A stretch of 61,988 nucleotides of DNA. Origin: Pseudomonadota bacterium. Lineage in GTDB: Bacteria; Pseudomonadota; Alphaproteobacteria; SHVP01. The DNA is taken from NCBI GenBank assembly GCA_027622715.1, contig JAQBYN010000018.1, forward strand, positions 1 to 61,988, read 5' to 3'. The position numbers and the translations under genes were made by a program. Shown piece after piece: positions 495 to 42,651 of this stretch. The notes under the pieces were generated by a model, which was not told the DNA's origin, made no database searches, and was given only the letters and a program-made list of their open reading frames with translations. Each line of letters opens with the position of its first letter. Position 1 is the stretch's first letter.

Positions 495-520
495 CCTGTC
501 AGCCTGTCAGCCTGTCAGCC
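493..520. repeat. 8-bp tandem repeat AGCCTGTC, 3.5 copies
   Basis: Units at 493-500, 501-508 and 509-516, then a partial AGCC. The repeat includes the last two bases of the ligase stop codon and the stop of the convergent LysR gene. It probably arose by slippage, and its copy number would alter the LysR C-terminus. Confidence 0.85.
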
Positions 521-1433
521 GCAGTGCGCCTGAATTGCGCCCTGCGACCATGAGCCAGTTGCGAAAAACGGCGACCTGCGGTTCGGCCAGCGCCGCTTGT
601 AGGCCGACGGCGAGATAGTCGAAAACAAAAGAAGAGGCCGTGCCGAGTGGCGCGACCAGCGTCCCCTCGGCCAGATCGCGCTCCACCAATGCGCCACGAC
701 CGAGGATCATGCCATGACCGTGGCGCGCGGCGACGATGGCCATACTGGCGCCGCCAAACCGGTGCCCCAAGGAAGAGTCGATGGCGTGGACCCCTCGACT
801 GGCCAACCACGTTTGCCATGTGGGGTACCAAGCATTGCGATGCATTGTGTCATCGTGGATCAACGGGATGGGTCGACGAAAATCCGAAGAATTCCCGAGT
901 TTATGCAAAGCTTGGAAGGCGGGGCTGCAGACCGGAAAAATCGTCTCGCTCATGATCTTCTGCACGACCAACCCCTGATACTGGCGCGGGCCGTAGGCGA
1001 TGGCCATGTGCGTCCGGTAGGTAAGCGCCGTGGGGTCCAACGGTCGTCCCAGCAACTCGACGACGATTCCAGGATAGTCCTTGGCGAAACGCTCCAGATG
1101 CGGAATGAGCCAGTGTTCCGCAAATGAGGCCTCGACGCTAACGCTCACCCGGCCCGGCCGTTGTGCGACCGTCATCCGGCGAACAGCCTCCTCAATGCCG
1201 TCCAGACCGGCGGACAATGCGGGAAGGCAGACCTGTCCGGCCGCGGTGAGGGAGACCTTGCGGGTCTCCCGCAAAAAGAGCTGGACCCCTAAAAATTCTT
1301 CAAGCTGGCGAACCTGGTGGCTAACCGCACCGGGCGACACGCCCAGCTCGCGGGCGGCCTTGGTCATGCTCATATTTCGTGCCGCCGCCTCAAAGGCGCG
1401 GATCGCGGTGAGGGGTGGGAGTTCGCGCGGCAA
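507..1433 (-). CDS. LysR-family transcriptional regulator (GcvA-like)
   Basis: 308 residues, the usual LysR length. Residues 1-65 form the winged HTH (PPLTAIRAFEAAARN, then TKAARELGVSPGAVSHQVRQLE), and about 90-300 the periplasmic-binding-like effector domain. The N-terminus matches the GcvA subgroup. The start is TTG: an in-frame stop lies a few codons upstream, and the next ATG, at residue 21, would cut into the HTH. It is divergent from the ABC substrate-binding gene across about 125 bp holding nested inverted repeats. Inference: it controls the 1559-13725 operon and itself in response to the transported compound or a metabolite. Confidence 0.93.
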   Translation of the reverse strand: MPRELPPLTAIRAFEAAARNMSMTKAARELGVSPGAVSHQVRQLEEFLGVQLFLRETRKVSLTAAGQVCLPALSAGLDGIEEAVRRMTVAQRPGRVSVSVEASFAEHWLIPHLERFAKDYPGIVVELLGRPLDPTALTYRTHMAIAYGPRQYQGLVVQKIMSETIFPVCSPAFQALHKLGNSSDFRRPIPLIHDDTMHRNAWYPTWQTWLASRGVHAIDSSLGHRFGGASMAIVAARHGHGMILGRGALVERDLAEGTLVAPLGTASSFVFDYLAVGLQAALAEPQVAVFRNWLMVAGRNSGALRLTG

Positions 1434-1470: not shown

Positions 1471-1493
1471 GACAATATTTTTGTTGTCAATAT
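1471..1493. promoter_or_regulatory. Candidate LysR operator (nested inverted repeats)
   Basis: In the unusually AT-rich divergent gap, GACAA (1471-1475) pairs with TTGTC (1484-1488), and overlapping it ATATT (1475-1479) pairs with AATAT (1489-1493). The second dyad, 5 bp arms with a 9 bp spacer, has the size and T-N11-A character of LysR boxes. Binding is inferred from position only. Confidence 0.5.
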
Positions 1494-1558
1494 GGGGCCA
1501 GGGCGGTCTTATCTTTACCGGAGAAGGGCCGCAAAGGTCCGAATTTGGGAGGATTGGA

Positions 1559-3136
1559 ATGAATAAGCGCAATAATTGGCTGGGCAGCGCCGCCCTTGCC
1601 GCGGTCGTGGCCCTATCTGCAGGTGGGGCTGTGGCTCAAGAGAAGACATTCGTCTTTGGCGCAGTCGGTGCGCCGGCGGGTTTTGATACCGACGCCTGGC
1701 TGACCGGGACGCTGGAGACGACCGTCAACGTCTATGAAGGTCTGACCAAGCATGCCGTCATCAAGGACGCGACCGGTCGCGAGGTGATCGACGCCAGCAA
1801 GATCGAGCCGCACATGGCCGAAAGTTGGACGGTGAGCGACGGCGGCAAAGTCGTCACCTACAAGATTCGTCCCGGCGTGAAGAGCCCGTTCGGTAACGAA
1901 CTTTCGGCGCACGACGTAGCCCATTCTTGGGCCATGGCAAAGGACCGTAAGAAGGTCGGCAATTTCATGGTTCGCGTTGGCCGGGTCGAGTCCGTGGAGG
2001 CGATCTCCGACACCGAGGTCAAGTTTACGCTCGGCACAGCCAACAATATTTTTCCGCGAATTCTATCGACGGTCTTCCCAGCGCTTGTCGATTCGAAGGT
2101 CATCAAGGAAAACGCCACGGCCGACGACCAATGGGCGACCAAGTGGATGGCGAAGAACACGGCCGGCTACGGTCCCTATCATGTGGAATCGGTGCGGCCC
2201 GGCGAAGGCGCGGTGCTCGTCTACAACAAAAACTATTTCGGCGAGAAGCCATACTTCACCCGCGTGATTTTTCGTGAGGTACCCTCGGCCGCCAGTCGGG
2301 CGGCATTGGTGAAGAGCGGGGATATCCATTGGGCCGACCAAATGCCGATCCAGCAGCTTCTCGACCTCATCAAAGACCCGAAGGTCAAGGTAGATAGCGT
2401 GCCCGGTACCGGCGCGGCGACGCTCCGCATGAACCCGAATTTCAAACCTTTCGACGATGTCCGGGTGCGCAGGGCCATCAACCACGCTTTCGATTACGCG
2501 GCCGTGCACGAGGCGGTCTTCCGTGGTCTTGGCGAGCAGTCGGATTCGATCCTTGCTCCGGCATTCGGCGCTTACTACACGCCAGCTCAGACCTACAATA
2601 CCGACATCGGCAAAGCGAAGGCCCTGCTCTCGGAGGCGGGCTATGCCAACGGTCTGGAAATCCAACTTGAGTACAGTGACAACTGGTGGTGGGAAGAGCC
2701 TTTGGCGATTCAGACAAAGGACGCTTTGGGAAAGGCCGGCATCAATGTCGCCCTGAAGCGGATTCCCAAGACCGAGATGAATACGCGCCGTGCCATCGGC
2801 AAGCGCGACGTTCCGTTCTTCCCGCATCTTGCGAATGCCTTCGTGCTTGACCCCGGCTATGCCTTCTATCTATCGGCCCACAGCGAGGGGTCGTCGGACG
2901 TCAATGATTATAACAACCCCAAGTTCGATGCCCTGGTTGACGCGCTGATCGGCGAGACCGACACAGCAAAGGCAATCGAGTTGGCAAAGGAAGCGCAGAA
3001 GCTCCACGCCGACGATGCGACCTTCGTCATCTCGGACTTCCCGAAGACGTACGCGGTCACCGCCCCGTGCATCACGGGTTGGCTGTGGTATCAGCACGAC
3101 CGCGTCGTATGGAAGCACCTGCGCTGCGAGGGGTAG
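1559..3136 (+). CDS. ABC transporter substrate-binding protein, family 5 (Dpp/Opp type)
   Basis: 525 residues. The ATG at 1559 is preceded by GGGAGG at a good distance and begins a classic Sec signal peptide: MNKRNN, a hydrophobic core, and likely cleavage after AVA at residue 26. A longer frame from 1481 has no signal peptide and is rejected. The mature part has the SBP_bac_5 layout, with PHMAESW near the N-terminus and FDDVRVRRAINHAFD in the second lobe. The periplasmic protein delivers ligand (peptide or another polar organic compound) to the two permeases downstream. First gene of the run, and the likely target of the divergent LysR regulator. The ligand is unknown; family 5 proteins also bind opines, nickel chelates and glycosides. 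Confidence 0.93.
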   Translation: MNKRNNWLGSAALAAVVALSAGGAVAQEKTFVFGAVGAPAGFDTDAWLTGTLETTVNVYEGLTKHAVIKDATGREVIDASKIEPHMAESWTVSDGGKVVTYKIRPGVKSPFGNELSAHDVAHSWAMAKDRKKVGNFMVRVGRVESVEAISDTEVKFTLGTANNIFPRILSTVFPALVDSKVIKENATADDQWATKWMAKNTAGYGPYHVESVRPGEGAVLVYNKNYFGEKPYFTRVIFREVPSAASRAALVKSGDIHWADQMPIQQLLDLIKDPKVKVDSVPGTGAATLRMNPNFKPFDDVRVRRAINHAFDYAAVHEAVFRGLGEQSDSILAPAFGAYYTPAQTYNTDIGKAKALLSEAGYANGLEIQLEYSDNWWWEEPLAIQTKDALGKAGINVALKRIPKTEMNTRRAIGKRDVPFFPHLANAFVLDPGYAFYLSAHSEGSSDVNDYNNPKFDALVDALIGETDTAKAIELAKEAQKLHADDATFVISDFPKTYAVTAPCITGWLWYQHDRVVWKHLRCEG

Positions 3137-3140
3137 GCTT

Positions 3141-3166
3141 AGACTTAAGTCTGAACGTCTAGACGT
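3141..3166. repeat. Two adjacent perfect 12-bp palindromes
   Basis: AGACTTAAGTCT (3141-3152) and ACGTCTAGACGT (3155-3166) fill the 35 bp gap between the binding-protein gene and the first permease. Neither is followed by a T tract. Inference: mRNA hairpins that protect the 3' end of the binding-protein message or attenuate downstream expression, as often seen after binding-protein genes. Confidence 0.75.
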
Positions 3167-3171
3167 CAGGG

Positions 3172-4179
3172 ATGTCCGTCCGGAGATTTCTTCTAAGACG
3201 GCTGGTATTGGTGGTGCCCATTTTGTTGGGCATCACCTTCCTGACGTTCATGCTTGTCCGCATTGGCGAGCAAAGTCCGGTGGCGATGCTCGGCGGCCCG
3301 ATGGCCGACCAAGCCACCTTTGCCATCATCGAAGAAGAACTCGGGCTCGACAGGCCGTTCTTCGTCCAGTTCGGAATCTACTTGGGAAAACTTGTCCAGG
3401 GCGATCTCGGCGACTCCTGGCAGTCCTCCGAGCGGGTTGCCGACGAAATCAGAAACCGGCTGCCGGCAAGCCTCGAACTCTTGATCTTTTCGGTCCTGTT
3501 GGGCGCGCTCATCGGGGTGCCGGTCGGGTTGCGTTCGGCACAACGGCCCAACGGGCTCTTCGATCAGGTTAGTCGCTTTGTCTCGCTGTTTGGTTTTTCG
3601 GTGCCGACCTATTGGATCGCGCTGATGTCGATCTTCGTGTTTTTCTTTCTGCTGCGTTGGTCGCCGCCGCCGATGGGGCGCCTTAATATTATGTCGTTTC
3701 CACCGCCGCGTTTAACCGGTAGCTACTTTATCGACAGCATTGTTTCGGGCAATTGGTCGACTGCGTGGTCTGCGCTTGGGCACCTGACGCTTCCCGTAAT
3801 TCTGTTCTCGATTATTGTGGCCGCGCCGATCATCAAACACACGCGGGCGATCGCCCTAGAAGTCCTCTCGAGCGACTATGCGCGCGCCCAGGGACTGCGC
3901 CCAAAGACCGTCCGGCGTATCGCGTTGCGAAACGCTATCGTGCCGATCCTCACGTTCATCGGCACCGAATTAACCGGTTTGCTCGCGGCGGTATCCTTGC
4001 TTGAACTCATTTTTGCGTGGGGTGGCCTTGGGCAGTGGGGACTGAATGCAATTCTGTTGGGGGACTTCGCGGCGGTTCAAGGCTATGTCTTGGTGCTTGC
4101 CGTATTCTCCGTGTCAATTTTTGTCGTGATCGACTTGTTGGTGCTGGTGCTTGAACCGCGCGCCACGCTGCGCTCATGA
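3172..4179 (+). CDS. ABC transporter permease, DppB/OppB type
   Basis: 335 residues with an N-terminal membrane segment (RFLLRRLVLVVPILLGITF), a large periplasmic loop and about five more membrane helices, as in the BPD_transp_1 family. The cytoplasmic coupling loop (EAA motif) is visible as DYARAQGLRPKTVRRIALRNA about 90 residues from the C-terminus. It forms the channel together with the next gene product, which starts four bases before this stop. The start lies 35 bp after the binding-protein gene, past two palindromes, which may set the expected excess of binding protein. Confidence 0.93.
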   Translation: MSVRRFLLRRLVLVVPILLGITFLTFMLVRIGEQSPVAMLGGPMADQATFAIIEEELGLDRPFFVQFGIYLGKLVQGDLGDSWQSSERVADEIRNRLPASLELLIFSVLLGALIGVPVGLRSAQRPNGLFDQVSRFVSLFGFSVPTYWIALMSIFVFFFLLRWSPPPMGRLNIMSFPPPRLTGSYFIDSIVSGNWSTAWSALGHLTLPVILFSIIVAAPIIKHTRAIALEVLSSDYARAQGLRPKTVRRIALRNAIVPILTFIGTELTGLLAAVSLLELIFAWGGLGQWGLNAILLGDFAAVQGYVLVLAVFSVSIFVVIDLLVLVLEPRATLRS

Positions 4180-5066
4180 CCGACGTCTCCTTGACCGGCA
4201 CAGCACTCTCCGGCTTCAGTTGGCGAGGGCGAATTTTTGGCATTGCCCGGCGCAGCCCGACCTTTGCGATCGGCTTCGCCATCGTCGCGGCCTTCGCGCT
4301 CATCGCCATCTTTGCCGATATCATCGCGCCCTTCGGTCCGATTGAGACTTTTTCTCGCGAAGTCCTGATCCCGCCGGGTGCCAAGTTCATTTTCGGCGCC
4401 GACGGCAACGGTATGGACGTCTTCAGCCGCGTCCTCCATGGCGCGCGCTATGCCTTTGGGATCGCCGTCCCCTCGGCTGCTTTGATGCTGGTCATTGGTG
4501 TCCCACTCGGGCTTATCGCCGGTTACAAGGGCGGGGTTCTTGACGAGATTGTCTTGCGGATCATGGATGTCCTCCGCTCGTTTCCCTCTATCGTCTTGGC
4601 GCTCGCCGTCGTCGCCGCGACGGGGCAATCGCTTGTTAATGTCGTATTGGTTATCGGGTTTCTCGACGCGCCGATTTTCGCTCGCTTGGTGCGCTCTGAG
4701 GTGTTGGCGCTGCGTTCTAGCGGTTTCATTGAGTCCGCCGTCGCCGCGGGCAATCCGACCTGGCGTATCCTTTTCGTCCATCTCATGCCCAATGCTATCC
4801 GCGGCTCGACCGCCATGATTGCCGTCCGTATGGCATGGGCGGTGCGGATCAGCGCCACCTTGGCCTTCATCGGGGTGGGTATTCAGGCGCCGACCCCGGA
4901 ATGGGGCGCGATGATTCGGCAGGGCGCGGAATTCATCATCAGCGGCGAGTGGTGGGTCGCGCTGTTTCCGGGTGCGGCATTGGTGGGCGTTGTGTTGGGC
5001 TTCAACCTACTCGGCGACGGTCTCCAAGATCTGTTGGATCCGCGCCGAAAGGCGACCGGCAAATGA
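4176..5066 (+). CDS. ABC transporter permease, DppC/OppC type
   Basis: 296 residues. The N-terminal cytoplasmic segment and first helix are typical of OppC_N, followed by about five membrane helices. The coupling loop reads ESAVAAGNPTWRILFVHLMPN. Its ATG overlaps the DppB-type stop (ATGA), and its own stop overlaps the following ATPase start, so the three genes are probably translationally coupled. Partner of the DppB-type permease in the heterodimeric inner-membrane channel. Confidence 0.93.
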   Translation: MTDVSLTGTALSGFSWRGRIFGIARRSPTFAIGFAIVAAFALIAIFADIIAPFGPIETFSREVLIPPGAKFIFGADGNGMDVFSRVLHGARYAFGIAVPSAALMLVIGVPLGLIAGYKGGVLDEIVLRIMDVLRSFPSIVLALAVVAATGQSLVNVVLVIGFLDAPIFARLVRSEVLALRSSGFIESAVAAGNPTWRILFVHLMPNAIRGSTAMIAVRMAWAVRISATLAFIGVGIQAPTPEWGAMIRQGAEFIISGEWWVALFPGAALVGVVLGFNLLGDGLQDLLDPRRKATGK

Positions 5067-6067
5067 GTCTGCTCGAGGTCAATAATTTGCACACGCACTT
5101 CGTGTCGCACGACCTCAACAACCGGCTACGGGTGGCCAAGGGGTTGAACGGGGTTTCCTTCGAGGTCGACAAAGGCGAGATCGTTGGCATTGTCGGTGAG
5201 ACTGGTGCAGGCAAATCGCTGACTGCCATGTCCATCATGGGCCTGTTGCAACTGCCGGCGCGCATTGTCGAGGGGTCGGTGCGTTTTGATGCTAACGAGC
5301 TGGTCGGCCTTGGCGTCGAAGAGCTCAATAAGATCCGCGGCACCCAACTGACGATGATCGTGCAATCACCGCTCTCATCGCTCGACCCGTTGTCGCGCGT
5401 TGGCAAGCAACTGGTCCGCGCGCAGCAGGAGCATCGCTCGATCTCCGCTGATGACGCTTGGCGCGCCGGCGCCGACATGCTGGCGACAGTAGGTATTCCG
5501 GACGCCGAGCGCCGAATGCGCGCGTGGCCTCACGAACTTTCTGGGGGAATGGCGCAACGCGTCCTCATCGCGCTTGCGCTCATCAATGGCCCGCGCATGC
5601 TTATTGCCGACGAGCCCACCACGGGTCTTGATGTGACCGTGCAGGCGCAGATTCTGGATCTACTTCGGACTCTCGTTGCCGACCGTGACATGGCCGCCAT
5701 GATCATCACCCACGACCTCGGCGTGGTCGCCCACTACTGCACCCGCATGTGCGTCATGTTTGCCGGTTCGATCGTCGAAAGCGGGCCGGTGCGACAGGTC
5801 TTCAACGACGCGCGGCACCCCTATACCCAAGCCTTGATTTCATCGACACCGAAACGCATTGCCCAAAAGGGCTACGGCCAAATTGGTGGACCGCCGCCGA
5901 ACCTCTACGACCTGCCCCTCGGGTGCCACTATCGCGACCGCTGTTCGCGCGCGGCTGACATCTGCCACTCGACGCCGCCGGTGACCGGTGTTGGTGATAA
6001 GCACGAGGCGATGTGCCATTTCGCAGACGAGAGTGGGGCCAACCCCGCGGCGGCACACCATGGCTGA
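5063..6067 (+). CDS. ABC transporter ATP-binding protein, DppD/OppD type
   Basis: 334 residues from the ATG that overlaps the preceding stop (ATGA). Walker A GETGAGKS, signature LSGGMAQRV, Walker B LIADEPTTGLD and the H-loop ITHDLG are intact. The C-terminal oligopeptide-transporter extension (HPYTQALISSTPK) leads into a cysteine cluster (GCHYRDRC, DIC, MC), which in Dpp/Opp ATPases can hold a [4Fe-4S] cluster. Pairs with the next ATPase to power import. Confidence 0.93.
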   Translation: MSLLEVNNLHTHFVSHDLNNRLRVAKGLNGVSFEVDKGEIVGIVGETGAGKSLTAMSIMGLLQLPARIVEGSVRFDANELVGLGVEELNKIRGTQLTMIVQSPLSSLDPLSRVGKQLVRAQQEHRSISADDAWRAGADMLATVGIPDAERRMRAWPHELSGGMAQRVLIALALINGPRMLIADEPTTGLDVTVQAQILDLLRTLVADRDMAAMIITHDLGVVAHYCTRMCVMFAGSIVESGPVRQVFNDARHPYTQALISSTPKRIAQKGYGQIGGPPPNLYDLPLGCHYRDRCSRAADICHSTPPVTGVGDKHEAMCHFADESGANPAAAHHG

Positions 6068-7103
6068 ACCGATCCTTCAGGTGCGCAATCTGGTGAAGCA
6101 TTTTCCGGGTAACCGACCCGGCGAAACAATCCATGCCGTGAACGGTGTTTCCTTCGATCTAATACCCGGTCAGACGCTTGGGCTGGTTGGTGAGAGCGGT
6201 TCCGGTAAATCGACGATCGGTCGGTGCGTGGTTCGCCTTCTGCGGCCCACGTCCGGGAAGATTCAATTCGGCGCGCACGACATCACGACCATCGGTGAAG
6301 GTCAGATGCGGCCGCTTCGCAAGGAAATCCAGATCGTTTTCCAAGATCCATACAGCGCGCTCAATCCGCGAATGAGGGCAGGAAATTTGATTGGCGAGTT
6401 GGTCAAATTGCATAGCGATCTTGGACCCCAGGCGCGCCGGGAAAGAGTAGCTGCGCTGGCTGCACGCGTGCATCTCAATGCGGATCTCTTGACCCGGTTT
6501 CCCAACGAATTGTCGGGTGGACAGCTACAGCGCGTTTGTATCGCGCGGGCGCTCGCCACCAATCCGAAGGTCATCGTTCTTGATGAACCCACTAGTTCAC
6601 TCGACTTGTCGGTCCGGGCTGGGATTTTGGAACTGCTGGGCGAGTTGCAGCGCGAGACCGGGGTCGCAATGCTGTTCATTTCTCACGACTTGGAAACCGT
6701 TCAGCTCGTCAGCCATCGCATTTTAGTGCTGTATCTGGGGTTCGTTATCGAAGACGGGCCCGCCAATGCTGTTTTCGCCAAGCCATCACATCCCTATTCA
6801 CAGGCGCTTTTGTCGGCCGACCTGCCGCCAGATCCTGACGTCGTTCTCGACCGTCAAATTCTACAGGGTGAAGTGCCCGGTCCAGTCAATTTGCCGCCGG
6901 GCTGCGCGTTCGCGCCGCGGTGTCCCTTGGCGCGCGATGAGTGCACCGGCGCCAGACCGCCCCTGGTCGGGGTCGGCGAGAATCATCATGCGGCCTGCGT
7001 GCGCATCGCGGATGGGACCAACGATATCCGGGCGGCTCAAATCGCCGCAGCCGGCGATATTCACAAGAAATTTCAAGATCAGTTCGTTAGGAGAACGACA
7101 TGA
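6060..7103 (+). CDS. ABC transporter ATP-binding protein, DppF/OppF type
   Basis: 347 residues. The ATG at 6060 lies inside the end of the preceding gene (8 bp overlap). Walker A GESGSGKS, signature LSGGQLQRV, Walker B IVLDEPTSSLD and the H-loop ISHDLE are present. The C-terminal cysteines (PPGCAFAPRCPLARDEC, AAC) match the Dpp/Opp extension. It completes a five-component importer (binding protein, two permeases, two ATPases). Its stop overlaps the start of the amidohydrolase-fold gene by four bases, tying transport to downstream metabolism. Confidence 0.93.
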   Translation: MAEPILQVRNLVKHFPGNRPGETIHAVNGVSFDLIPGQTLGLVGESGSGKSTIGRCVVRLLRPTSGKIQFGAHDITTIGEGQMRPLRKEIQIVFQDPYSALNPRMRAGNLIGELVKLHSDLGPQARRERVAALAARVHLNADLLTRFPNELSGGQLQRVCIARALATNPKVIVLDEPTSSLDLSVRAGILELLGELQRETGVAMLFISHDLETVQLVSHRILVLYLGFVIEDGPANAVFAKPSHPYSQALLSADLPPDPDVVLDRQILQGEVPGPVNLPPGCAFAPRCPLARDECTGARPPLVGVGENHHAACVRIADGTNDIRAAQIAAAGDIHKKFQDQFVRRTT

Positions 7104-8035
7104 GCGTCAAAGGGACCATCGACATCGTCGTCAACGTGACGACACCAGACCTGATCAAACGCGGCGGGTCGCCAAGCGACGAGACCTTCAAGGATCAAGT
7201 TCGCCAGCCCAAGGGAGCGCGAAAAGGCGTTAGCATTGCCGACTATCTGCGCAAGATGGACCGTGCCGGTATCGAACGCTCGTTGCTGATTGCCGTGCGC
7301 GCCGGCGATATGCGCATGGAGGGATCAAAGGAAATCTCCTACAAATATGTCGCCGACATTTGCCGCAAATACCCCGACCGGTTCTCTGGCCTCGCGGGTG
7401 TTAACCCGATGCTCGGGATGCAGCAGCTGCGCGATCTGGAAGAGGCGGTCGACAAATACGGCTTCGTTGGTGCCCATTTCTACCCGCACTGGTTCGATAT
7501 GGCGCCCGACCACCCGTACATCTTTCCGGTCTACGCAAAATGTATCGAACTCGACATTCCGATCATGATGCAGGTCGGACACAACCTGATCTATCAACGC
7601 GACCGGCGGCTGCCCAGCATGGCGCAGCCCATTACGTTGGATCGCATTGCCATTCTGTACCCCGAGCTCAAACTCTTGGGAATCCATTTGGGCGTGCCGT
7701 GGACAGATGAGATGATCTCAATGGCCTGGAAGCACGAGAACATCTATATCGGTGGCGATGCCTATGCGCCGAGCTATTGGCCCAAACAGATGGTGCACTA
7801 CGCCAACACATACGGATCGCACAAGTTCCTCTTCGGCACCGACTGGATGGTGATCGATCCAGAGCGCGCGGTCCGCGACGTCGAAGAACTCGGGTTCCGG
7901 CCCGATTCTAAGGTAAAGATCATGCGGGATAACGCCCTGCGTATTTTCAAGTTGCCAAAAGGCGGTCTCAAGACGACGCCGCGCAATTGGGGGGCAGCGC
8001 TTGCCGATGCCCCTTCTAAGAAGGGAAAGAAATAA
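7100..8035 (+). CDS. Amidohydrolase-2 family (metal-dependent TIM barrel) protein, atypical metal site
   Basis: 311 residues resembling the amidohydrolase_2/ACMSD-like family of hydrolases and decarboxylases: KYPDRFSGLAGVNP, GFVGAHFYPHW, LGIHLGVPW and the near-C-terminal FGTDWM that supplies the metal- or acid-binding aspartate. The usual N-terminal D-x-H-x-H metal motif is missing; the equivalent strand reads TIDIVVNVTTPD. The histidine in GIHLG and the late aspartate remain. It overlaps DppF by 4 bp and the cupin by 1 bp (TAATG). Inference: hydrolysis or decarboxylation of the imported compound or its CoA-pathway intermediate, possibly with reduced metal content. Confidence 0.8.
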   Translation: MSVKGTIDIVVNVTTPDLIKRGGSPSDETFKDQVRQPKGARKGVSIADYLRKMDRAGIERSLLIAVRAGDMRMEGSKEISYKYVADICRKYPDRFSGLAGVNPMLGMQQLRDLEEAVDKYGFVGAHFYPHWFDMAPDHPYIFPVYAKCIELDIPIMMQVGHNLIYQRDRRLPSMAQPITLDRIAILYPELKLLGIHLGVPWTDEMISMAWKHENIYIGGDAYAPSYWPKQMVHYANTYGSHKFLFGTDWMVIDPERAVRDVEELGFRPDSKVKIMRDNALRIFKLPKGGLKTTPRNWGAALADAPSKKGKK

Positions 8036-8886
8036 TGCCTCGCCCGCACATCGAATTTATACAGGCCCAAGCATTATCATGGGCCGATGGCCTGCCTGCC
8101 GGCGCCGCGCGCGCCGATGTCGGTTGCAAGACCCTCAGCATCGACGTTGCCACGGGCGCCGCGACCTGCGTCGTCCGCTATCCGGCTGGCTGGAAACGGG
8201 CCGAAGGGGAATACCTCTCGACCGACGAAGAGTTCTATGTGCTCGATGGCGCGCTTTCGATCAACGGAATCACCTACGAGCGCGACAGTTACGCGCACCT
8301 GCCGGCTGGTTACCTACGAAAGGCCGCCGCGTCGGATAAGGGCGCCGTTTTGCTGACATTCTTCGACGGTCCGGTCGATGCCGTCGCAGCCAATGCGCCA
8401 GGTTCAATGTTTCGTACCGATCGTCTGGTTGAGAAGGTCTCGGTGCCCACTGCCGACTGGGGCAATGCCGACGTCGATGCGATGGGCCTGCGCGATATAT
8501 CGACCAGCTCGCGCCTGCTCTCGTTGTTCACCGACCCAGACACCGGCGAGATCACCTATCTAACCGGCGTCGTGCCGTTCAAATCTGAGTCCTCGCCAGA
8601 ACGTCATCCCGTCGGGCAGGAGTTCTACATTTTAGGCGGCTCCCTTGCCGGCGTCGGCGGGTTCATGCAAGGCGGCGCTTATTGCTGGCGCCCGCCGATG
8701 GTGACACATGGGCCCTATGGCAGCCCGACCGGCGCATTGATCATTTTGCGCAGCGTCGGTGGTCCGCTCACCACCGAGCTCGATGCGCCGGTGTCGCATA
8801 ACTATGCCCCCGACCATCGCCCGGTCTTGCCGCCCGAATTGGCCGCGGCCGGATCGAAGCCTTTCCCACCGCCGGCCCGGTACTAG
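8035..8886 (+). CDS. Bicupin-fold protein
   Basis: 283 residues with two cupin-like halves, one around EEFYVLDGALSINGITYERDSYAHLPAG and one around QEFYILGGSL to MVTHGPYG. The metal histidines of classic cupin motifs are sparse, so it may be a weak-metal or non-metal bicupin related to ChrR-type or dioxygenase-like cupins. The start shares one base with the amidohydrolase stop. Its position between a hydrolase and a CoA ligase suggests a catabolic enzyme (isomerase or dioxygenase) rather than a regulator, but the reaction is unknown. Confidence 0.7.
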   Translation: MPRPHIEFIQAQALSWADGLPAGAARADVGCKTLSIDVATGAATCVVRYPAGWKRAEGEYLSTDEEFYVLDGALSINGITYERDSYAHLPAGYLRKAAASDKGAVLLTFFDGPVDAVAANAPGSMFRTDRLVEKVSVPTADWGNADVDAMGLRDISTSSRLLSLFTDPDTGEITYLTGVVPFKSESSPERHPVGQEFYILGGSLAGVGGFMQGGAYCWRPPMVTHGPYGSPTGALIILRSVGGPLTTELDAPVSHNYAPDHRPVLPPELAAAGSKPFPPPARY

Positions 8887-8892
8887 ATCGCG

Positions 8893-10467
8893 ATGAACGC
8901 CGGAATCATTGCCAACCGCCCCGCGTCCTACCGCGCGGTTACCATCACCGAAGGGTTGCGGACCAGTGCGCGCCGGACACCGGACAAACTGGCCCTCACG
9001 GAAGAAGGGCGCAAACTCACGCACGGGCAACTCATCCGCCGGATTAATCGGGTGTCCAATGCCGGCCTCGGCCTTGGCCTAAAGCCCGGCGATCACGTGG
9101 CGCTCATGTGCACGAATTGCATCGAGTTTGTCGAAGTCACCTGCGGCATGTCCGAGATCGGCGTCGCGCCGGCGATGATCAACGCGCGCTCCACCGCGCA
9201 CGAGACGTCCTATATCTGCAACGACGCTGGGGCCAAAATCCTGTTCGTCCATGCCGATAACCAAGAAGCGGCGTTTGCCGCCGACCTGCAGACGGTTGAG
9301 CGCATCGTGGTCATCGATCCCGGCAACGACAACAGCGATTATGAGAAACTTCTGGCCGCCGCATCGAGCGAACAATCCTCGATTGCGCTTGAAGAGTGGG
9401 ATGTTTTCTCGATCCCCTATACCTCGGGAACGACCGGCAATCCCAAAGGCGTCTTGCTGTCGCACCGCTCACGGGTGAATCACATGCTGTTCACCATGGC
9501 CGCCAACTATGGCTGCTACACCCCCGAGGCCCGACCGCTCGCGACCTCGCCGTTTCACAACGGCGCCGGTTTCATCAATGCGTTGGCGGGTCCCTTCTTC
9601 GGTGGCACGACCCACATCCTGCCCAAGTACGAACCGGAACTGATGCTGCGCGCGCTACAGGAACGCAACATTACCAGCATGTTCATGGTGCCGACGCACT
9701 TTCACGCCATGTTTAATCTCGGACAAGACACCCTCCATAAGTACGACAAGAGTTCGCTGCAGGTGATCCATTCCAATGCCGCGCCGCTGCCGCAAGCGAC
9801 AAAGGAAAAGATCGTCGACTTCTTCGGTGAAGGAATCTTGTTCGAATCCTACGGGTCGACCGAAGCCGGCGGTTGTACCTTCCTGCGCCCCGAAGACCAG
9901 TTACGCAAGATGAGTTGCGTCGGCCAACCCGGACCCAGCGTATGGCTCGAAATCCGCAATGATCAGGGCGACGTTCTGGGAAACGACGAGGTCGGCGAAG
10001 TCTGGATCAAGAATGCTTGGCTGTTCAACGGCTATTGGAACAATCCCGAAGCGACGGCCGAAGGGCTGGTCGACGGATGGTGCACCGTGGGCGATCTCGG
10101 CAAGACCGACGACGAGGGCTATCTCTACCTCGTCGACCGCAAGAAAAACGTCATCATCTCCGGCGGTCAGAATATCTTCCCACGCGAGATCGAAGAGGTG
10201 CTGCACCATCACCCGGCGGTTGGCGAAGTGGCCGTCGTCGGCAAGAAGGACGACTATTGGGGCGAGTCCGTTACCGCCTTCGTCGTCCTGCGCCCAGGCC
10301 AGGCCGCCGGTGCTGACGAACTCAAAGAACGCTGCGGCCGCGAACTCGCGCGTTACAAGTTGCCCAAGGAATTTCATTTCGTCGAGGCGCTGCCAAAAAA
10401 CGCGACGGGAAAAATCCTGCACCGCGAATTGCGCGATCGGTTGAACAAGGGGGAGTTCGACACATGA
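8893..10467 (+). CDS. Acyl-CoA synthetase (AMP-forming ligase)
   Basis: 524 residues, complete adenylate-forming enzyme. P-loop YTSGTTGNPKGV, adenine-binding YGSTEAGG, hinge LVDRKKNVIISGG, and C-terminal LPKNATGKIL with the catalytic lysine. The pocket (FHNGAGF and neighbours) resembles fatty- or aryl-acid ligases but does not fix the substrate. It lies 6 bp after the bicupin, and its stop overlaps the start of the tandem hydrolase. Inference: CoA activation of the acid released from the imported compound. Confidence 0.9.
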   Translation: MNAGIIANRPASYRAVTITEGLRTSARRTPDKLALTEEGRKLTHGQLIRRINRVSNAGLGLGLKPGDHVALMCTNCIEFVEVTCGMSEIGVAPAMINARSTAHETSYICNDAGAKILFVHADNQEAAFAADLQTVERIVVIDPGNDNSDYEKLLAAASSEQSSIALEEWDVFSIPYTSGTTGNPKGVLLSHRSRVNHMLFTMAANYGCYTPEARPLATSPFHNGAGFINALAGPFFGGTTHILPKYEPELMLRALQERNITSMFMVPTHFHAMFNLGQDTLHKYDKSSLQVIHSNAAPLPQATKEKIVDFFGEGILFESYGSTEAGGCTFLRPEDQLRKMSCVGQPGPSVWLEIRNDQGDVLGNDEVGEVWIKNAWLFNGYWNNPEATAEGLVDGWCTVGDLGKTDDEGYLYLVDRKKNVIISGGQNIFPREIEEVLHHHPAVGEVAVVGKKDDYWGESVTAFVVLRPGQAAGADELKERCGRELARYKLPKEFHFVEALPKNATGKILHRELRDRLNKGEFDT

Positions 10468-12149
10468 TGATCACGCGCCACTATGCGACCGTTGGTAATC
10501 GGCGGGTGCACTACAGGCGTGCGGGGCAGGGGCCGGCCATTGTCCTGCTCCATGCCTCCCCGGTGTCGAGCGAGGTGTTCGAAGCCGTTCATTTTCCCGT
10601 CCTTGCCAAAGAATTCACCGTCATTGCGATTGATACGCCGGGGCAGGGCCTATCGGACAAGTTGGACCTTGGCCGCCAGGAAAAGATCGAAGACCTTGCT
10701 GACGCACTCGCTGAAACGCTTGAAGTCCTCGGCGTCGATCATTGCGCGCTCTACGGTCGCCATACCGGCGCCTCGATTGCTGTCGAATACGCCCGCCGAT
10801 TCCCGGCGCGCGCGGCACTGGTCATCACCGACGGATTCCCGCTCTTCCCACCGGAAGTACGCGACGACTATCTGAAGAACTACCTTGCCGACATTGTGCC
10901 CGATTGGGCCGGCTCGCATCTGTTGTGGTGGTGGTTCCGTTACCGCGAACAGCATGTCTTTTGGCCTTGGCACAAACACAAAGGCGCCAACCGCGCCGAC
11001 CAAGACGTGCCCGATCTCGCCTTCCTCCAGCGTGGGACGCGCGAAATTCTTGTCGCCGGCAATACCTATAAGAGCCCCTACGCGGCGGCGTTCCTTCATG
11101 AAGGCCCGGCAGCCGTTGATGCCATCCTCAAGGGGCCGGTACCGGTGTGTTTCGGTGGGCGGCCGGGCGATTCCGTATTCTCCGCGCTCGAGCGGATGGA
11201 CAAAAAATCGTGGATCAAGGAATTCGCGCGCGATAAGCGCGATGCCGCGATGCAAGAATTGGAAATCTTTCGTCAGCATCCGGCGAAGGGGGAGCCGCCA
11301 CCGCCGCCTGATACGGTGGACCTGCCCGGACGTGTCACCATCCGTTACGCTGCCGTCGGCGGCCGCCAGGTCGCGGTTCGGTCGTTTGGCGATCACGCCG
11401 GCACCCCGGTTGTGCTGCTGCACCGCTTCCCGGGGTCGGGAAAATTTCTCGAACCGCTACTGCTCGAACTCGGAAAATCGCGCCGCGCTATCGCGATCGA
11501 CCTGCCGGGCCACGGCGATTCGGATCGGTTGGGCGATCACAGCGTGACCGCTTATGCCGCTGTCGTCGCCGCAACGCTTGATCATCTTGGACTGCCGTCG
11601 GCGCATATCTACGGCCACAACGCCGGCGCATCGGTTGCGATCGCGCTTGCGCTCGATCGCCCGCGTGCCGTTGCAAGCCTGATGCTCGAAGGGCCGATGG
11701 TGATGACGGCGACCGACCGCGCGCGATTCGCGGCGCAGTGGGCGTTGCCGGCCGATCCAGTATGGGATGGCCACCACCTCACGACCATCTGGCACCAAAC
11801 GCGCGACAAGCGCCTGTACTATCCTTGGTACGAGAAAACGCTTGCCGCCAGTCGCTTTATCGAGCCCGAAGTCGAACCCGAGAGAATTCACGACCAAGTC
11901 GTCGAGATGATCAAGCATCCGTGGTCGTTCAAACCCGCGTGGGACGCGGCCTTCGCTTATCCGACCCGCGAAGGCCTATCGGAAGTGCGCGTCCCGACGT
12001 GGATCGGGGTCGCCGACGCCGACGACTTCGCGCCCTGCCGTGAGGCCACGGAACGCCTTCTTGGGCAGGACGTCACGGCCCTGGGGCCCACACCATCGCC
12101 GGCGGCCACGGCGCAGGCGATCAACGCCTTCCTCAAAGCACAAGCGTGA
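10464..12149 (+). CDS. Tandem-duplicated alpha/beta-hydrolase protein, non-canonical nucleophiles
   Basis: 561 residues made of two alpha/beta-hydrolase domains of about 280 residues each. Half 1 shows IVLLHASP, AIDTPGQGLSD and a nucleophile elbow YGRHTGAS. Half 2 shows VVLLHRFPGSG, AIDLPGHGDSD and YGHNAGAS. The elbow consensus G-x-S-x-G should carry Ser, Asp or Cys, but here it has His in half 1 and Asn in half 2. Family knowledge: a subset of the fold with G-x-H-T-G elbows exists. Inference: a non-hydrolytic lyase, a C-C bond enzyme with unusual chemistry, or a pseudoenzyme. A pair of ATGs at 10464 and 10467 overlaps the ligase stop. Confidence 0.82.
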   Translation: MMITRHYATVGNRRVHYRRAGQGPAIVLLHASPVSSEVFEAVHFPVLAKEFTVIAIDTPGQGLSDKLDLGRQEKIEDLADALAETLEVLGVDHCALYGRHTGASIAVEYARRFPARAALVITDGFPLFPPEVRDDYLKNYLADIVPDWAGSHLLWWWFRYREQHVFWPWHKHKGANRADQDVPDLAFLQRGTREILVAGNTYKSPYAAAFLHEGPAAVDAILKGPVPVCFGGRPGDSVFSALERMDKKSWIKEFARDKRDAAMQELEIFRQHPAKGEPPPPPDTVDLPGRVTIRYAAVGGRQVAVRSFGDHAGTPVVLLHRFPGSGKFLEPLLLELGKSRRAIAIDLPGHGDSDRLGDHSVTAYAAVVAATLDHLGLPSAHIYGHNAGASVAIALALDRPRAVASLMLEGPMVMTATDRARFAAQWALPADPVWDGHHLTTIWHQTRDKRLYYPWYEKTLAASRFIEPEVEPERIHDQVVEMIKHPWSFKPAWDAAFAYPTREGLSEVRVPTWIGVADADDFAPCREATERLLGQDVTALGPTPSPAATAQAINAFLKAQA

Positions 12150-12156
12150 GGACGAG

Positions 12157-13725
12157 ATGACGGCTCCCGCGGTCGATCCCGCTGATCCAGCCGCCATCGC
12201 TGCACGAGCGGTGTCCATCGTCGGCGCCGACAACGTGGTCAGCGACGCGGACGAACGCGCGGTCTACTCGCAAGATATCGTCCAATGGGATGCGCCCATC
12301 GCCGATCTCGTCGTGCGCCCCGCTTCGGAGACTGACGTCTCTGCACTGCTCCGGCTCGCCGGCGAGCTTGGCTTGGCGGTCGCGCCGCGCGGTGGCGGGC
12401 TTTCCTACACACGGGGTTATGTGCCGGAAAAACCCGGCACGATGATCCTCGACCTCACACGCCTCAACGTCATCCACGAGGTCAACGAGGAGGACCGCTA
12501 CATCACGCTCGGGCCTGCCGTGACCTGGCAACAGGTGATGGACGAACTGCGCCCACGCGGCATGCGCACCGTCCTAACTGGGCCGATCTCAGGCATTTAT
12601 TCGACGGTCGGCGGCGCCGCGTCCCAGAACATTCCTGGCAGTATGGACACGATCCTCGGGCTCGAGGTGGTGTTGGCCGATGGCCGCATCGTGCACACCG
12701 GGTCCGCCGCGATTTCGCGCGCCGACTCGCCGTTCTATCGCTACTACGGACCCGACCTGACCGGATTGTTTCTCGGCGATACCGGCACCTACGGTGTTAA
12801 GACGCGGCTCACCCTACGGATTGAACGAATCCCTGAGGGCGTTGCCTTCGGTTCGTTTGCGTTTGAAACGTTGAGCGATATGGCCGCCGCCATGACCGAC
12901 GTCTCGCGTCTCGGGGTCGCCGCCAAGAGTTTCGGCATGGACCCGCTCAAAAACCGTACCGCCACCAAGGTCGGCTTGCGCGAAGGCGCCGAAACGTTGC
13001 GGGACGTCGCGCGCGGCTCGGGATCGCTGGTCCGCGGCCTCAAGGATGCGGCGCGGATCGTCGCGGCCGGGCGCGACGCCTATGACGACGTCAAATGGTC
13101 GCTCCACCTCACCGTCGAAGGGTTCGATCAACGCGCCGCCGACACCGCAATGGGGGCGGCGCGCAAGGCCTGCGCGGTCCACGGCGGCCGTGACATCGAA
13201 CCCAGCATCCCCATCGCCATGCGCGCCAAACCGTTCTCCATCCGCGGCTTCCTTGGCCTGAACGGCGAAAGTTGGGTGCCCGTGCACGGCGTCTTCCCGA
13301 TGTCCAAGGCGCGCGATGTGGTTCGCGTCGTCGAGAATTTCTTTGCCGAACGCCAACCGCTGCTCGACGAACACGACATCCAGGTCTCGTACCTGTCGTC
13401 AATCAACGGTCAATTCTGGTTGCTCGAGCCGATGTTCTATTGGATGGACGCGGTCAGCGAGTTCCACATGCGCTACCTCGACCGCAAGCGTTACGCCAAG
13501 TTCCAAGCGATTCCCGCCAACCCGGATGCGCGGGCAGCGGTGATGCGCATGCGCGGCGAGCTGCGCGACCTGTTCTTCGGCCTCGGCGCCGTGTCGGCAC
13601 AAATCGGCAAGTTCTACAATCTAGCCGACGCGCTCGAGCCCGAGACCTACGCCGTCCTCACATCGATCAAGGACCTGCTCGATCCCGACCGCCGTCTCAA
13701 TCCGGGCAACCTCGGCTGGCGGTAA
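12157..13725 (+). CDS. FAD-binding oxidase/dehydrogenase (PCMH/VAO-type)
   Basis: 522 residues. The start at 12157 follows GAGGACGAG, seven bases after the hydrolase stop; an upstream ATG in this frame lies inside that gene and is rejected. The PCMH FAD domain is seen at about 40-215: VRPASETDVSALLRLA, the GGGLSYTRGY loop, and GIYSTVGGAASQN. The C-terminus ends LDPDRRLNPGN, the usual end of glycolate-oxidase/VAO-type flavoenzymes. It should oxidise a hydroxy acid or phenolic alcohol. Last gene of the operon; its stop lies in the A tract of the opposing terminator. Confidence 0.88.
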   Translation: MTAPAVDPADPAAIAARAVSIVGADNVVSDADERAVYSQDIVQWDAPIADLVVRPASETDVSALLRLAGELGLAVAPRGGGLSYTRGYVPEKPGTMILDLTRLNVIHEVNEEDRYITLGPAVTWQQVMDELRPRGMRTVLTGPISGIYSTVGGAASQNIPGSMDTILGLEVVLADGRIVHTGSAAISRADSPFYRYYGPDLTGLFLGDTGTYGVKTRLTLRIERIPEGVAFGSFAFETLSDMAAAMTDVSRLGVAAKSFGMDPLKNRTATKVGLREGAETLRDVARGSGSLVRGLKDAARIVAAGRDAYDDVKWSLHLTVEGFDQRAADTAMGAARKACAVHGGRDIEPSIPIAMRAKPFSIRGFLGLNGESWVPVHGVFPMSKARDVVRVVENFFAERQPLLDEHDIQVSYLSSINGQFWLLEPMFYWMDAVSEFHMRYLDRKRYAKFQAIPANPDARAAVMRMRGELRDLFFGLGAVSAQIGKFYNLADALEPETYAVLTSIKDLLDPDRRLNPGNLGWR

Positions 13726-13766: not shown

Positions 13767-14687
13767 TCAAGAAAACATTTCTGCGGCCACCTGTACCATG
13801 GCGTGCGCCTTTGGGCCGATCCGCTTGACCGACTCGACAAAGCGCGGATGGGTCATGCCGGAGCCCAGGAACGTCCATCGCATCGCTTGATGTTGCGTCT
13901 CGACGTAGCGCTGGCGTTCGTCTGTTTTGAACGATCGCCCAGTCGCTGCAACAAAAGCGTCGGCGTCGAACTCGGTTTGTTGCCGCAGCCCGTCGTCGAG
14001 CATGCTGCCAATTTGAAAATACTCTTGGATCGCCATGTCGATCTCGGCAGGATCCGATGCATCCACCAATGACTCGACCATCAGGGTGTCGATCTTGGCG
14101 TGCTGCGCTTCCTCCATCCAATGATGGCGCAACAGCGACTTGAACTGCGGATCGAGTGCGGCGTCGCACTTAATGCTGTCGACATAGTGGCCTTGCGACA
14201 TCCACTCGATGTGCAAGATCGTCAACGCGACGGCAAGGGGATGGTGCGAGAGAACGGCGCGGGCGATCTCCGACGGTGGGCCGATCACCTCACAGGGTGT
14301 GCCGAAATCCGCGATGAACGCCTTACGGAAAGTCTTGAACAGATGGATGTGTTTGGCTTCTTCGGCGGCGAATTGAAGCAACGCCCGGACCCGGTAGTCG
14401 TCGGCGTCCTTGAGTTGCGGCCGCGTATGGTCCAACACGAACGGTAAGATAAATTCCTCCACCAATCCAAACATGTACAGATAGTTGTGGCCCCGAATCT
14501 GGTTGGCCACGGTCCGTTCCTCCGGTTCAAGGAAGGTCATTGCGTCGGTTCTAGCCAAGGTTTCCGGCATGAAGGGCCGGTCAAAATCCAGCGGCTTGTC
14601 TTCGCCGATGATGTCTTCAACCCGCCAGTGAACCCGCTCCGAGGCGGCTAGCACGTCGCGGTAGGTGTATTCCGGTTGCGTGTTCAT
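13767..14687 (-). CDS. Ferritin-like diiron protein (AurF/p-aminobenzoate N-oxygenase-like)
   Basis: 306 residues, all helical. It shows the repeated carboxylate/histidine pattern of non-haem diiron proteins: E77/E78, E109-E110 with H113 (EEAKH), E161 (HIEW), and E192-E193 with H196 (EEAQHAK). Family knowledge: such proteins activate O2 for oxygenation or N-oxygenation, or act as iron-dependent oxidases. The start is supported by AAAGGA six bases upstream. It lies 33 bp downstream of a DUF1127-like gene on the same strand, and both are divergent from a large BTAD regulator. The substrate is unknown. Confidence 0.82.
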   Translation of the reverse strand: MNTQPEYTYRDVLAASERVHWRVEDIIGEDKPLDFDRPFMPETLARTDAMTFLEPEERTVANQIRGHNYLYMFGLVEEFILPFVLDHTRPQLKDADDYRVRALLQFAAEEAKHIHLFKTFRKAFIADFGTPCEVIGPPSEIARAVLSHHPLAVALTILHIEWMSQGHYVDSIKCDAALDPQFKSLLRHHWMEEAQHAKIDTLMVESLVDASDPAEIDMAIQEYFQIGSMLDDGLRQQTEFDADAFVAATGRSFKTDERQRYVETQHQAMRWTFLGSGMTHPRFVESVKRIGPKAHAMVQVAAEMFS

Positions 14688-14720: not shown

Positions 14721-14942
14721 TCAGTCTTCGCTAGCGGGGACGGGTACGCCGTAGCGCACGGCCAATGCCTGGGGCGATCGCAGCCCCATGGCGCGCAGTT
14801 GCTGCATCGTCATGGATCTGGTCTGGGCCGCCGCGCGGCGCCGAGCCTCCCAGCGCCTGACCGCAAAAAGGGTCGTTTGGCCGCTGGCGACGAACCGCTG
14901 CCAGGGCCCGAAACTGGGTGTGCTAGGTGCGAATGCGGTCAT
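14721..14942 (-). CDS. Small DUF1127-like basic protein
   Basis: 73 residues. The second half, AVRRWEARRRAAAQTRSM followed by LRAMGL, matches the arginine-rich tryptophan-containing DUF1127 pattern (W-x-x-R-R-R, then L-x-x-M-G-L). The ATG at 14942 has GGAGAAG upstream; a longer frame reaches 15101 but has a low-quality N-terminus. Family knowledge: small alphaproteobacterial proteins linked to RNA metabolism and phosphate or stress adaptation. Cotranscription with the diiron gene is inferred from spacing. Confidence 0.65.
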   Translation of the reverse strand: MTAFAPSTPSFGPWQRFVASGQTTLFAVRRWEARRRAAAQTRSMTMQQLRAMGLRSPQALAVRYGVPVPASED

Positions 14943-15101
14943 TTTCTTCTCCGTCCTGTTGTGCAGCCCCCGTGGCCGCAGACCGAAGATGGACGCGCAC
15001 CGTGTGAGACAACGTTGGAACCGGCGTGGAAAATGCTCAAAATGAGGTTCATTCGGCCGTTTGACCGTGTGAACAAGCGGTCGGCGGCGAGGAAGCGGCA
15101 A

Positions 15102-18100: not shown

Positions 18101-18113
18101 GGAATCGGAGTAG
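15102..18113 (+). CDS. SARP/BTAD-type transcriptional regulator with STAND ATPase and TPR region
   Basis: 1003 residues from the ATG preceded by GAGGAAG. Domains in order: OmpR-like winged helix (1-95; KVLGELEVVRDG, RRERLCEMFWEL), bacterial transcriptional activation domain (about 96-240), FVGRVEEL linker, AAA/NACHT-like ATPase with Walker A GEPGIGKT near 283 and Walker B VVLSFDDIHWAD near 386, then helical TPR-like repeats to the C-terminus. There is no C-terminal LuxR HTH, so DNA binding must be N-terminal. Such AfsR-like proteins are common in actinobacteria and less so here. The frame stays open upstream to 14676, but that part overlaps the divergent DUF1127 gene and is rejected. Likely regulates its neighbours. 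Confidence 0.85.
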   Translation: MSVELKVLGELEVVRDGARLTMPQSKKTKALLAYLAVTGRPHRRERLCEMFWELADDPRGSLRWSLSKLRPLLDEPGDRHIVADRETVTLAGVAVDLLALEKAADAPLDAQVAALEACRGELLEGLDMLNLLDYQAWLVAQREDMRAKRIGLLDAVLGSSAGEEGALVRHARTRVNIDPYNGEARARFIRLLHSAGHGDEAEEQYRAGCRLLAEVGATTTPIDTTWQEIRRPTGAPALAPALTERPRAITEGFVGRVEELNSLLSILEGAGSRREARVVVIAGEPGIGKTSLVAELKSRAADQGATVLSGAAFEAESGRPYGPWVEALREIRAAAIGPALSADLAPLLPRLEKEPVQEHSRDRLYGGVVELLASLAHTAPPVVLSFDDIHWADGATCELLHYVVRMSRHRPLLVVLTARDGELPDNEAATGTLAALRREGLLDEIMLGPFTQAESNALIAGLPTEDLQRVFHQSAGNPLFAIQLAHAVSEHAGTGDSVAQTVRDRLDRLPPFAGDVLRWAAALGQAFSSDVLRNVVGGDDEEFVATLELLGRHGLIRETGDRNGRYVFAHDIVRAAVYDQLSGPRRRLIHLKIAKFLEANAEGESDSASDIARHAALAGENGMAARACVHAGRRYLRQFAGTEADAVAKRGLRYAEALSEQKRIKITLRLLAIRHQAHRPSDPEAAAAEIKTLAERALDLGLLDTARAGFHFLSDLRWEVGDMTSAGTYIRRAEFLSRTGNDNARIVGLGEAARCLVLLDRDLPDAEAMLLEARALAQRAGIEHESLEDAQGLLSQFHGDVEGASQGFGKARDLSRRNGNRLYEFYALEHLVIAEMERGRRDSARALCAELEQLGEKLRDGSELPMARALAALCRYNHDESEVTEADLAACTDALRLTDAKHRLSVVLTASSRIHFERGRPAQARILGEEALSCVRHLERPNDIARILSFLVQACTAQGDDDAHDRYFDELLRLTQRPLSIQVKRLVDATLVAGQTGAEPESE

Positions 18114-41745: not shown

Positions 41746-42600
41746 TCACGGCAAATCCTTGAAAAACGCGTCGATCGCCGCCAGCGATTCGGGCTCGTCC
41801 AGCAGCGGCGTGTGACCCCGGTTCGGAATCGTCGCGGCTTGCAGATCCGGTTTCGCTTGGCGCATTTCTTCGACCGTTTCAGCCGTCAGGATGCCCGACC
41901 ATGCGCCACGAATCGACAAGATCGGTTTATCTTTCAGCGCCTCGAACTTGGCCCAACTGTGCGGCGGGTTGGTGCGCCCGCGGTAGGCGTCGCCCATCTT
42001 GGGGTCGAAATCGAATCGCACCCGGGCATCGCGGGTCTCGACGAATGTCGCCCGCGCGCGGTCCATCCATTGCGCATCACTCAAGCCCGGCGTGGTTTTT
42101 TCCGACCAGGCGCGAAACGCCGCACAGGCCGCGTCCCAATCGGGGTAGGCGTAGGGCAGGTCGAAATACTTGCCGACCTTACCGCGGCCGCCGCTGCGCA
42201 CTGCTGGGCCGACATCGTTCAGCACGACCGCGGCAATCAAATCGGGCCGGCTCAGTGCCAAGGTCATCGTCACCAACCCGCCACGCGAGGTGCCGACGAA
42301 GATCGCTGCTTTGACGCTGGTGCCATCGAGTAGATCGACGACATCGGCGGCATCGTTGTTGACCTGATAGTTCATGTAATCCAAATCGCGGTCGGATCGT
42401 CCGCAGCCGCGATAATCCAGGCAAATAACCTGGCGCTCAGCCGCAAGATGCGTGGCCAGGGCGTGAAAGTCGCGCGAATTACGCGTCAACCCGCTCAGGC
42501 ACAAAACCGGTGTGCGTGCGCTCTCTTCCGGACCATAGCTGCGGAAATGAAGCGCCAGCCCGTTGCGGGTCTGATGGGTGTATTCGCGGTATTCGGCCAC
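41746..42600 (-). CDS. Alpha/beta hydrolase, paralogue 1
   Basis: 284 residues from GTG with AGGAGA upstream. VLCLSGLTRNSRDFH, LDYRGCGRSD, the nucleophile elbow GTSRGG with Ser, and a late GHTPLLDEP with the catalytic His. Closely related to the next gene upstream (same LSGLTRNS and YRGxGRSD segments), so the pair comes from a tandem duplication. Unlike the tandem hydrolase in the 10.5 kb operon, the catalytic Ser is intact. Possible esterase or enol-lactone hydrolase. Confidence 0.9.
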   Translation of the reverse strand: MAEYREYTHQTRNGLALHFRSYGPEESARTPVLCLSGLTRNSRDFHALATHLAAERQVICLDYRGCGRSDRDLDYMNYQVNNDAADVVDLLDGTSVKAAIFVGTSRGGLVTMTLALSRPDLIAAVVLNDVGPAVRSGGRGKVGKYFDLPYAYPDWDAACAAFRAWSEKTTPGLSDAQWMDRARATFVETRDARVRFDFDPKMGDAYRGRTNPPHSWAKFEALKDKPILSIRGAWSGILTAETVEEMRQAKPDLQAATIPNRGHTPLLDEPESLAAIDAFFKDLP

Positions 42601-42651
42601 GGCGTCTCCTGGTCGGGCGCCGCGGACTCTATCGGCACAGATTGACGCGCG

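Follow-up and report, generated by a model that had tools for sequence, protein, structure and literature searches.

What does a protein do that carries two alpha/beta-hydrolase (ABH) domains in one chain and a nucleophilic serine in neither? Few enzyme superfamilies are as large as that of the ABH proteins. In the window, the 61,988-nucleotide alphaproteobacterial contig analyzed here over its whole length (JAQBYN010000018.1), an ORF at 10464-12149 on the forward strand, with an ATG start, encodes such a protein of 561 residues. The first-pass annotation had described it as a fused double ABH with His (GRHTG) and Asn (GHNAG) at its elbows, and this description was confirmed. Pfam Abhydrolase_1 matched both halves of the protein (E 4.8e-25; 89.1 bits against a gathering score of 25.8), and in an alignment with five canonical ABH proteins His100 and Asn386 both fell on the nucleophile Ser. 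The parts of the protein are listed below.

10464..12149 (+): fused double ABH-fold protein with N-type and C-type domains, 561 aa
10755..10769 (+): N-domain nucleophile elbow GRHTG, residues 98-102; His100 (10761-10763) at the nucleophile position
10839..11099 (+): N-domain cap, residues 126-212, approximate boundaries; conserved G-x-H-L-x3-W-x3-R with His152, Trp157 and Arg161
11169..11171 (+): Asp236, acid after strand beta7, present in 68/71 N-type domains
11274..11342 (+): inter-domain linker, lowest conservation along the protein
11613..11627 (+): C-domain degenerate elbow GHNAG, residues 384-388; Asn386 (11619-11621) at a drifting position
11694..11963 (+): C-domain cap, residues 411-500; conserved His438, Trp443, Arg447, Asp448, Pro454-Trp455 and Lys484

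Family assignment and predicted structure

The window protein scored below the curated cut-off of every NCBIfam equivalog listed (HsaD, BphD, PcaD, MenH, RutD, BchO), with 94.8 against 400 for HsaD, and it reached 137.9 against 307 for PRK14875. The Asp nucleophile of haloalkane dehalogenases and epoxide hydrolases was not present, the elbow residues being His and Asn, and NCBIfam dehalogenase matches were far under their cut-offs. Neither half contained a Ser in GxSxG or a His after beta8; among the features of serine hydrolases, the N-half kept the acid after beta7 (Asp236), and it also retained HxSP in the oxyanion loop. We define the GxHTG family here by a basic elbow in GxHTG, a post-beta7 Asp, no beta8 His and a conserved Trp/Arg cap motif, and each of these was found in the N-half. 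Judged by its sequence, the window protein is an ABH-fold protein outside the serine hydrolases, and its family appears to be little described.

The best PDB profile and fold matches were canonical ABH esterases, lactonases and C-C hydrolases; the PDB search identified no GxHTG member and gave generic ABH matches only, at low identity. The full-length AlphaFold model, made without an alignment, was unusable (pLDDT 38.3). A model of the N-domain from an 18-row alignment reached pLDDT 59.5 and pTM 0.68, with core elements mostly above 70 and a poor cap and beta7 loop. VIA-align comparison with esterases (Est1) and lactonases gave Z of about 20. The ABH core is recovered in this predicted model, whose alignment held canonical phage ABHs and is thereby biased towards the ABH fold.

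Operon and genomic context

The first-pass annotation had also placed a duplicated, doubly non-canonical hydrolase within a catabolic operon. The neighboring amidohydrolase, cupin, CoA ligase and FAD oxidase genes agree with this placement.

507..1433 (-): LysR-type regulator, divergent, upstream of the operon (Pfam HTH_1 and LysR_substrate)
1481..7103 (+): ABC transporter genes (solute-binding protein, two permeases, two ATPases), ORFs with recognizable sequence; operon start
7100..8035 (+): Amidohydro_2 family protein (Pfam PF04909, E 3.8e-34)
8035..8886 (+): ChrR-type cupin (Pfam PF12973)
8893..10467 (+): AMP-forming acyl-CoA ligase (Pfam AMP-binding, E 1.7e-77), directly upstream of the fused gene
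12157..13725 (+): FAD_binding_4 oxidase, glycolate/lactate oxidase or VAO-like (Pfam E 1e-29, PDB relatives)

The ABC transporter, Amidohydro_2, cupin, CoA ligase, fused ABH and FAD oxidase genes apparently form one catabolic operon. The transporter genes are syntenic in a same-genus relative (L050), Amidohydro_2 partners 48-87% identical lie beside HTG genes elsewhere, and a cupin homologue adjoins HTG genes on sphingomonad plasmids. On Comamonas and Variovorax plasmids, the amidohydrolase and CoA ligase genes stand beside single-domain HTG proteins. Homologues of the neighbors recurred at 71 HTG loci, in plain counts that are not enrichments over background: FAD oxidase at 19, SAM methyltransferase at 18, CoA ligase at 17, isochorismatase-type amidase at 14, Amidohydro_2 at 13 and cupin at 8. 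Three of the four relatives with a Lys elbow (L008, L098, L102) were found in the amidohydrolase-CoA ligase-FAD oxidase context.

In six relatives, a comparable stretch lacks the fused protein; it combines genes for Amidohydro_2, isochorismatase-type amidases, a CoA ligase and an FAD oxidase, and UbiD and Asp/Glu racemase genes lie nearby.

L174-L179 (genomes G005, G008, G007, G002, G004, G009): operon without the fused protein

The protein is therefore not essential to the pathway or is supplied from elsewhere in these six; it is a frequent, non-obligatory partner of the operon. In G005, a DsbD-like gene adjoins the operon.

A catabolic island on plasmid pJE1 of Sphingomonas sp. JE1 (L153, 1-45000) contains a single GSHTG gene and a fused double. 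It also holds an FAD oxidase, a cupin, two LeuCD pairs, a PEP-mutase/ICL family gene, an HMG-CoA lyase and an isochorismatase, together with two polysaccharide-deacetylase-family genes, hydantoinase A/B and a HapK-like gene; a near copy lies on a Sphingobium TomTYG65 plasmid (L140). The island resembles a route via substituted maleimides or maleates, and a literature search on maleimide or maleamate in such sphingomonad clusters found no supporting paper. The amidases, the racemase and the LeuCD-, PEP-mutase- and deacetylase-family genes of pJE1 hint that the substrates may contain nitrogen. An attempt to match the window operon to a known pathway gave no match.

Beyond the operon, the window contains a gene with a weak AurF-like (p-aminobenzoate N-oxygenase) match, convergent with the operon (13767-14687, -), and a large regulator-like protein of about 1110 aa with an AAA_16 ATPase domain (14778-18113, +). 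An RPE65-family (carotenoid-cleavage-type) oxygenase gene (27158-28543, +) adjoins one for a luciferase-like monooxygenase (25932-27107). Two adjacent ordinary single ABHs at 41749-43539 (-) have Ser elbows, GTSRG and GTSLG, and GH after beta8; the first of them served as a control.

Conservation of the elbow, acid and histidine positions

The search for single-polypeptide homologues and elbow conservation that the first-pass annotation had called for yielded 84 distinct double ABH proteins, in which the N elbow is conserved and the C elbow drifts. Their domains were aligned with single-domain relatives and canonical ABHs. The N-type elbow (n = 71) was His in 65 domains, Lys in 4, Arg in 1 and Asp in 1, figures that, like the elbow and acid counts below, rest on related sequences aligned automatically and do not represent independent events. 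His occupied the elbow in 13/13 single-domain HTG proteins, a set that includes two Azospirillum second halves, and in 24/24 domains of the His/His clade, two outlying singles among them. When all HTG-type domains (N-type, singles and His/His; n = 108) were pooled, the elbow was His in 102, Lys in 4, Arg in 1 and Asp in 1, with Ser or Cys in 0/108. A basic elbow variant or GxHTG is thus nearly fixed in the first half of the 71 doubles, which span several families of Alphaproteobacteria and one further class. The post-beta7 acid was Asp in 104/108 HTG-type and 50/73 C-type domains.

The C-type elbow (n = 73) was Gly in 25, Asn in 14, Trp in 10, Gln in 6, Asp in 6, His in 5, Ser in 4 and other residues in 3. 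The C elbow read N, N, N, S, S and G in six orthologues or close relatives of the window protein, all of which had GRHTG at the N elbow. Homologues with an ordinary Ser at these positions had been named beforehand as the finding that would speak for a local mutation or sequencing error. For the N-half there were none among the 108 HTG-type domains; for the C-half they existed (4/73), as drift and not as a working triad, and two of the nearest orthologues, which have Ser at the C elbow, lack a triad His. Sequencing error or local mutation was rejected, since orthologues carry the same elbow residues: proteins 81-82% identical in the same-genus genome G001 and on a MAG contig (L009 and L011 being one contig) keep both. 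These alignments indicate that the two substitutions are not equivalent, with His100 conserved and Asn386 just one of several residues at a position that drifts.

At the aligned position after beta8, 5/5 canonical ABHs carry the canonical His, as do 14/22 domains of the His/His clade; it is missing from all 13 singles and all 73 first halves and occurs in 1/73 second halves. This pattern across the groups suggests that the elbow His came first and the beta8 His was lost later, an order read from the distribution rather than from a reconstruction, and it is consistent with relocation of the His to the elbow. No triad is left in the C-half of the window protein. The suggestion that the protein is a pseudo-enzyme is thus well supported for the C-half, with its degenerate elbow and missing triad; the halves are not equally odd, and the His of the N-half is conserved. 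Substrate channelling, proposed in the same annotation, found no specific support.

The most conserved columns of the N-half included the basic elbow residue, the post-beta7 Asp and the cap His and Trp; those of the C-half included Trp443, Trp455, His438, Ser353 and Lys484. The C-half retains the cap motif common to single-domain relatives. Lys484 is kept in C-type domains (about 60/71) and in singles (12/13) and is absent at the aligned N-type position, where other cap residues are retained. One may speculate from this division of cap residues that active sites are shared between the halves.

Selection, phylogeny and distribution

Against the two nearest same-genus orthologues, dN/dS was 0.04-0.06 for the N-half and 0.11-0.15 for the C-half, rough values with synonymous sites near saturation. 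These values indicate that the C-half is under purifying selection, though apparently not at its former active site. FastTree and IQ-TREE, the latter run with the elbow columns left out, placed the N-type domains in one clade (0.98; SH-aLRT 99) beside the single HTG proteins, and the C-type domains apart. A double in Azospirillum has the reverse order: its second half lay near the singles and its first half near the C-types, a placement that rests on long branches. A Rosetta-stone test looked for C-type domains encoded on their own; no complete gene of this kind was found, and the sole fragment lay at a contig end.

The window genome contains nine full-length N-type/C-type doubles, the window's own counted. 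Matches were found in 10/10 genomes of its family. Elsewhere the fused type was rare among the genomes sampled: it occurred in 16/289 genomes of the class sample, four of them from this family, and in 3/398 of the phylum sample, the window genome counted. Fused doubles were also found in Azospirillum and on plasmids of Novosphingobium, Sphingomonas and Sphingobium. A single-HTG profile found none in the viral collection; the one viral relative listed (L144) has no evident ABH ORF, looks like a chance match and was rejected.

The 3.1 Mb window genome holds some 20 GxHTG genes in all (the nine doubles, about six singles, and His/His doubles). Its contigs C67 and C66 (genome G000; L039, L040, L041, L042) carry fused doubles of a second class, in which each half has GxHTG; many of these His/His doubles still have a His after beta8, and several stand in tandem. 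On another contig (C18; L048, 5570-7383), two adjacent unfused single-domain GxHTG genes possibly encode a heterodimer.

Proposed mechanism and alternative explanations

Our preferred reading, to which we give about an even chance, is that the protein is an asymmetric fused pseudo-dimer with a catalytic N-half and a dead C-half. The N-half would be a non-serine ABH enzyme in which the elbow His (or Lys), assisted by Asp236, acts as a general base or as a cationic stabilizer of an anionic intermediate (enolate, carbanion or similar). The reaction would proceed without an acyl-enzyme, as in a C-C or C-X lyase, an isomerase or a cofactor-free oxygenation, and the substrate may be an organic acid or a CoA thioester of the operon's pathway. 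The C-half would stand in for one subunit of an ancestral homodimer, contributing that subunit's cap surface. The chemistry of the GxHTG family is probably other than ordinary ester hydrolysis.

His100 might instead be a covalent nucleophile, the N-half being a hydrolase or acyltransferase that works via an acyl-imidazole on CoA thioesters from the neighboring ligase. The high frequency of His at the elbow (102/108 domains), accompanied by the oxyanion-loop HxSP and the post-beta7 Asp, is in line with this, as is the acyl-CoA ligase gene immediately upstream, which recurs beside relatives. However, Lys and Arg occur naturally at the elbow, three of the Lys forms in the same operon context, and there is no second His at beta8 to activate the nucleophile. 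We regard this explanation as unlikely, since the natural exchange of His, Lys and Arg is easier to reconcile with a basic or cationic role than with a covalent one. A basic role is retained if the N-half is a cofactor-free oxygenase like HOD/QDO, with the elbow His deprotonating the substrate and O2 in the oxyanion hole. HOD, an ABH-fold enzyme whose nucleophile is dispensable, provides a precedent (PMC10548524), and the neighborhoods of several relatives include isochorismatase-type amidase, UbiD and Asp/Glu racemase genes, which suggests N-containing substrates. HOD, however, relies on a beta8 His-Asp dyad and has Ser or Ala at its elbow, and the beta8 His is missing here, which makes this alternative very unlikely.

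Both halves might also be catalytically dead, in which case the protein would serve the catabolic operon in binding, as a scaffold or as a sensor. The canonical triad is found in neither half, and inactive or serine-less ABH proteins such as Arb2 and CGI-58 exist (PMC11878206). Against this stand the elbow base, post-beta7 Asp and cap His and Trp among the top-conserved columns of the N-half, its dN/dS of about 0.05, and the recurrence of relatives in catabolic gene clusters across different classes; we consider a wholly inactive protein quite unlikely.

The reading as an active/dead pseudo-dimer can be carried further, to a proposal that we find possible but doubtful. GxHTG proteins would then constitute an undescribed mechanistic class of ABHs, non-hydrolytic, in which the triad His, formerly on the beta8 loop, now sits at the elbow and forms a collapsed His-Asp dyad with the beta7 Asp. 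The fused N-type/C-type proteins would be obligate active/dead pseudo-heterodimers that arose with either half in first place and underwent expansion in a single alphaproteobacterial family for the degradation of acids from N-containing rings.

Comparison with known systems

A 2024 survey of ABH active sites gives Ser as the invariable elbow residue and locates His on the beta8 loop, with Asp, Cys or a missing nucleophile as variants (PMC11878206). The GxHTG motifs searched appear in no paper of the open-access literature covered, and searches of that literature for His replacing the ABH nucleophile gave nothing specific. A family with a conserved elbow His and no beta8 His would add a further layout of the ABH active site. 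With its series of intermediates (His with a beta8 His, His without it, and a dead partner), the family offers a way to test the change of chemistry. Single-domain GxHTG proteins are annotated in records merely as alpha/beta hydrolase or hypothetical protein, and for GxHTG genes the label 'alpha/beta hydrolase' is probably misleading.

Canonical ABHs (Est1, 3-oxoadipate enol-lactonase and BphD/HsaD-type enzymes) share with the window protein the fold, the oxyanion loop, the cap domain and the post-beta7 acid. Compared with them, the window protein has His for Ser and no beta8 His in its N-half, a triad-less C-half and a fused duplication. HOD/QDO resemble it in the ABH fold and, for HOD, in an elbow nucleophile that is not required, whereas the general base of HOD is the beta8 His paired with Asp, beside an elbow Ser or Ala (PMC10548524), and the window protein has an elbow His and no beta8 His. 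Serine-less ABHs (carboxy-lyases with a D/E-H dyad, CGI-58) resemble it as ABH folds that work without serine; going by their descriptions, which set them apart, they lack serine and are neither carriers of an elbow His nor fused doubles. The single-domain GxHTG proteins on Comamonas, Variovorax, Sphingomonas and Novosphingobium plasmids share the elbow, the post-beta7 Asp, the cap motif and the absence of a beta8 His, and some adjoin an amidohydrolase and a CoA ligase; unlike the window protein, they consist of one domain.
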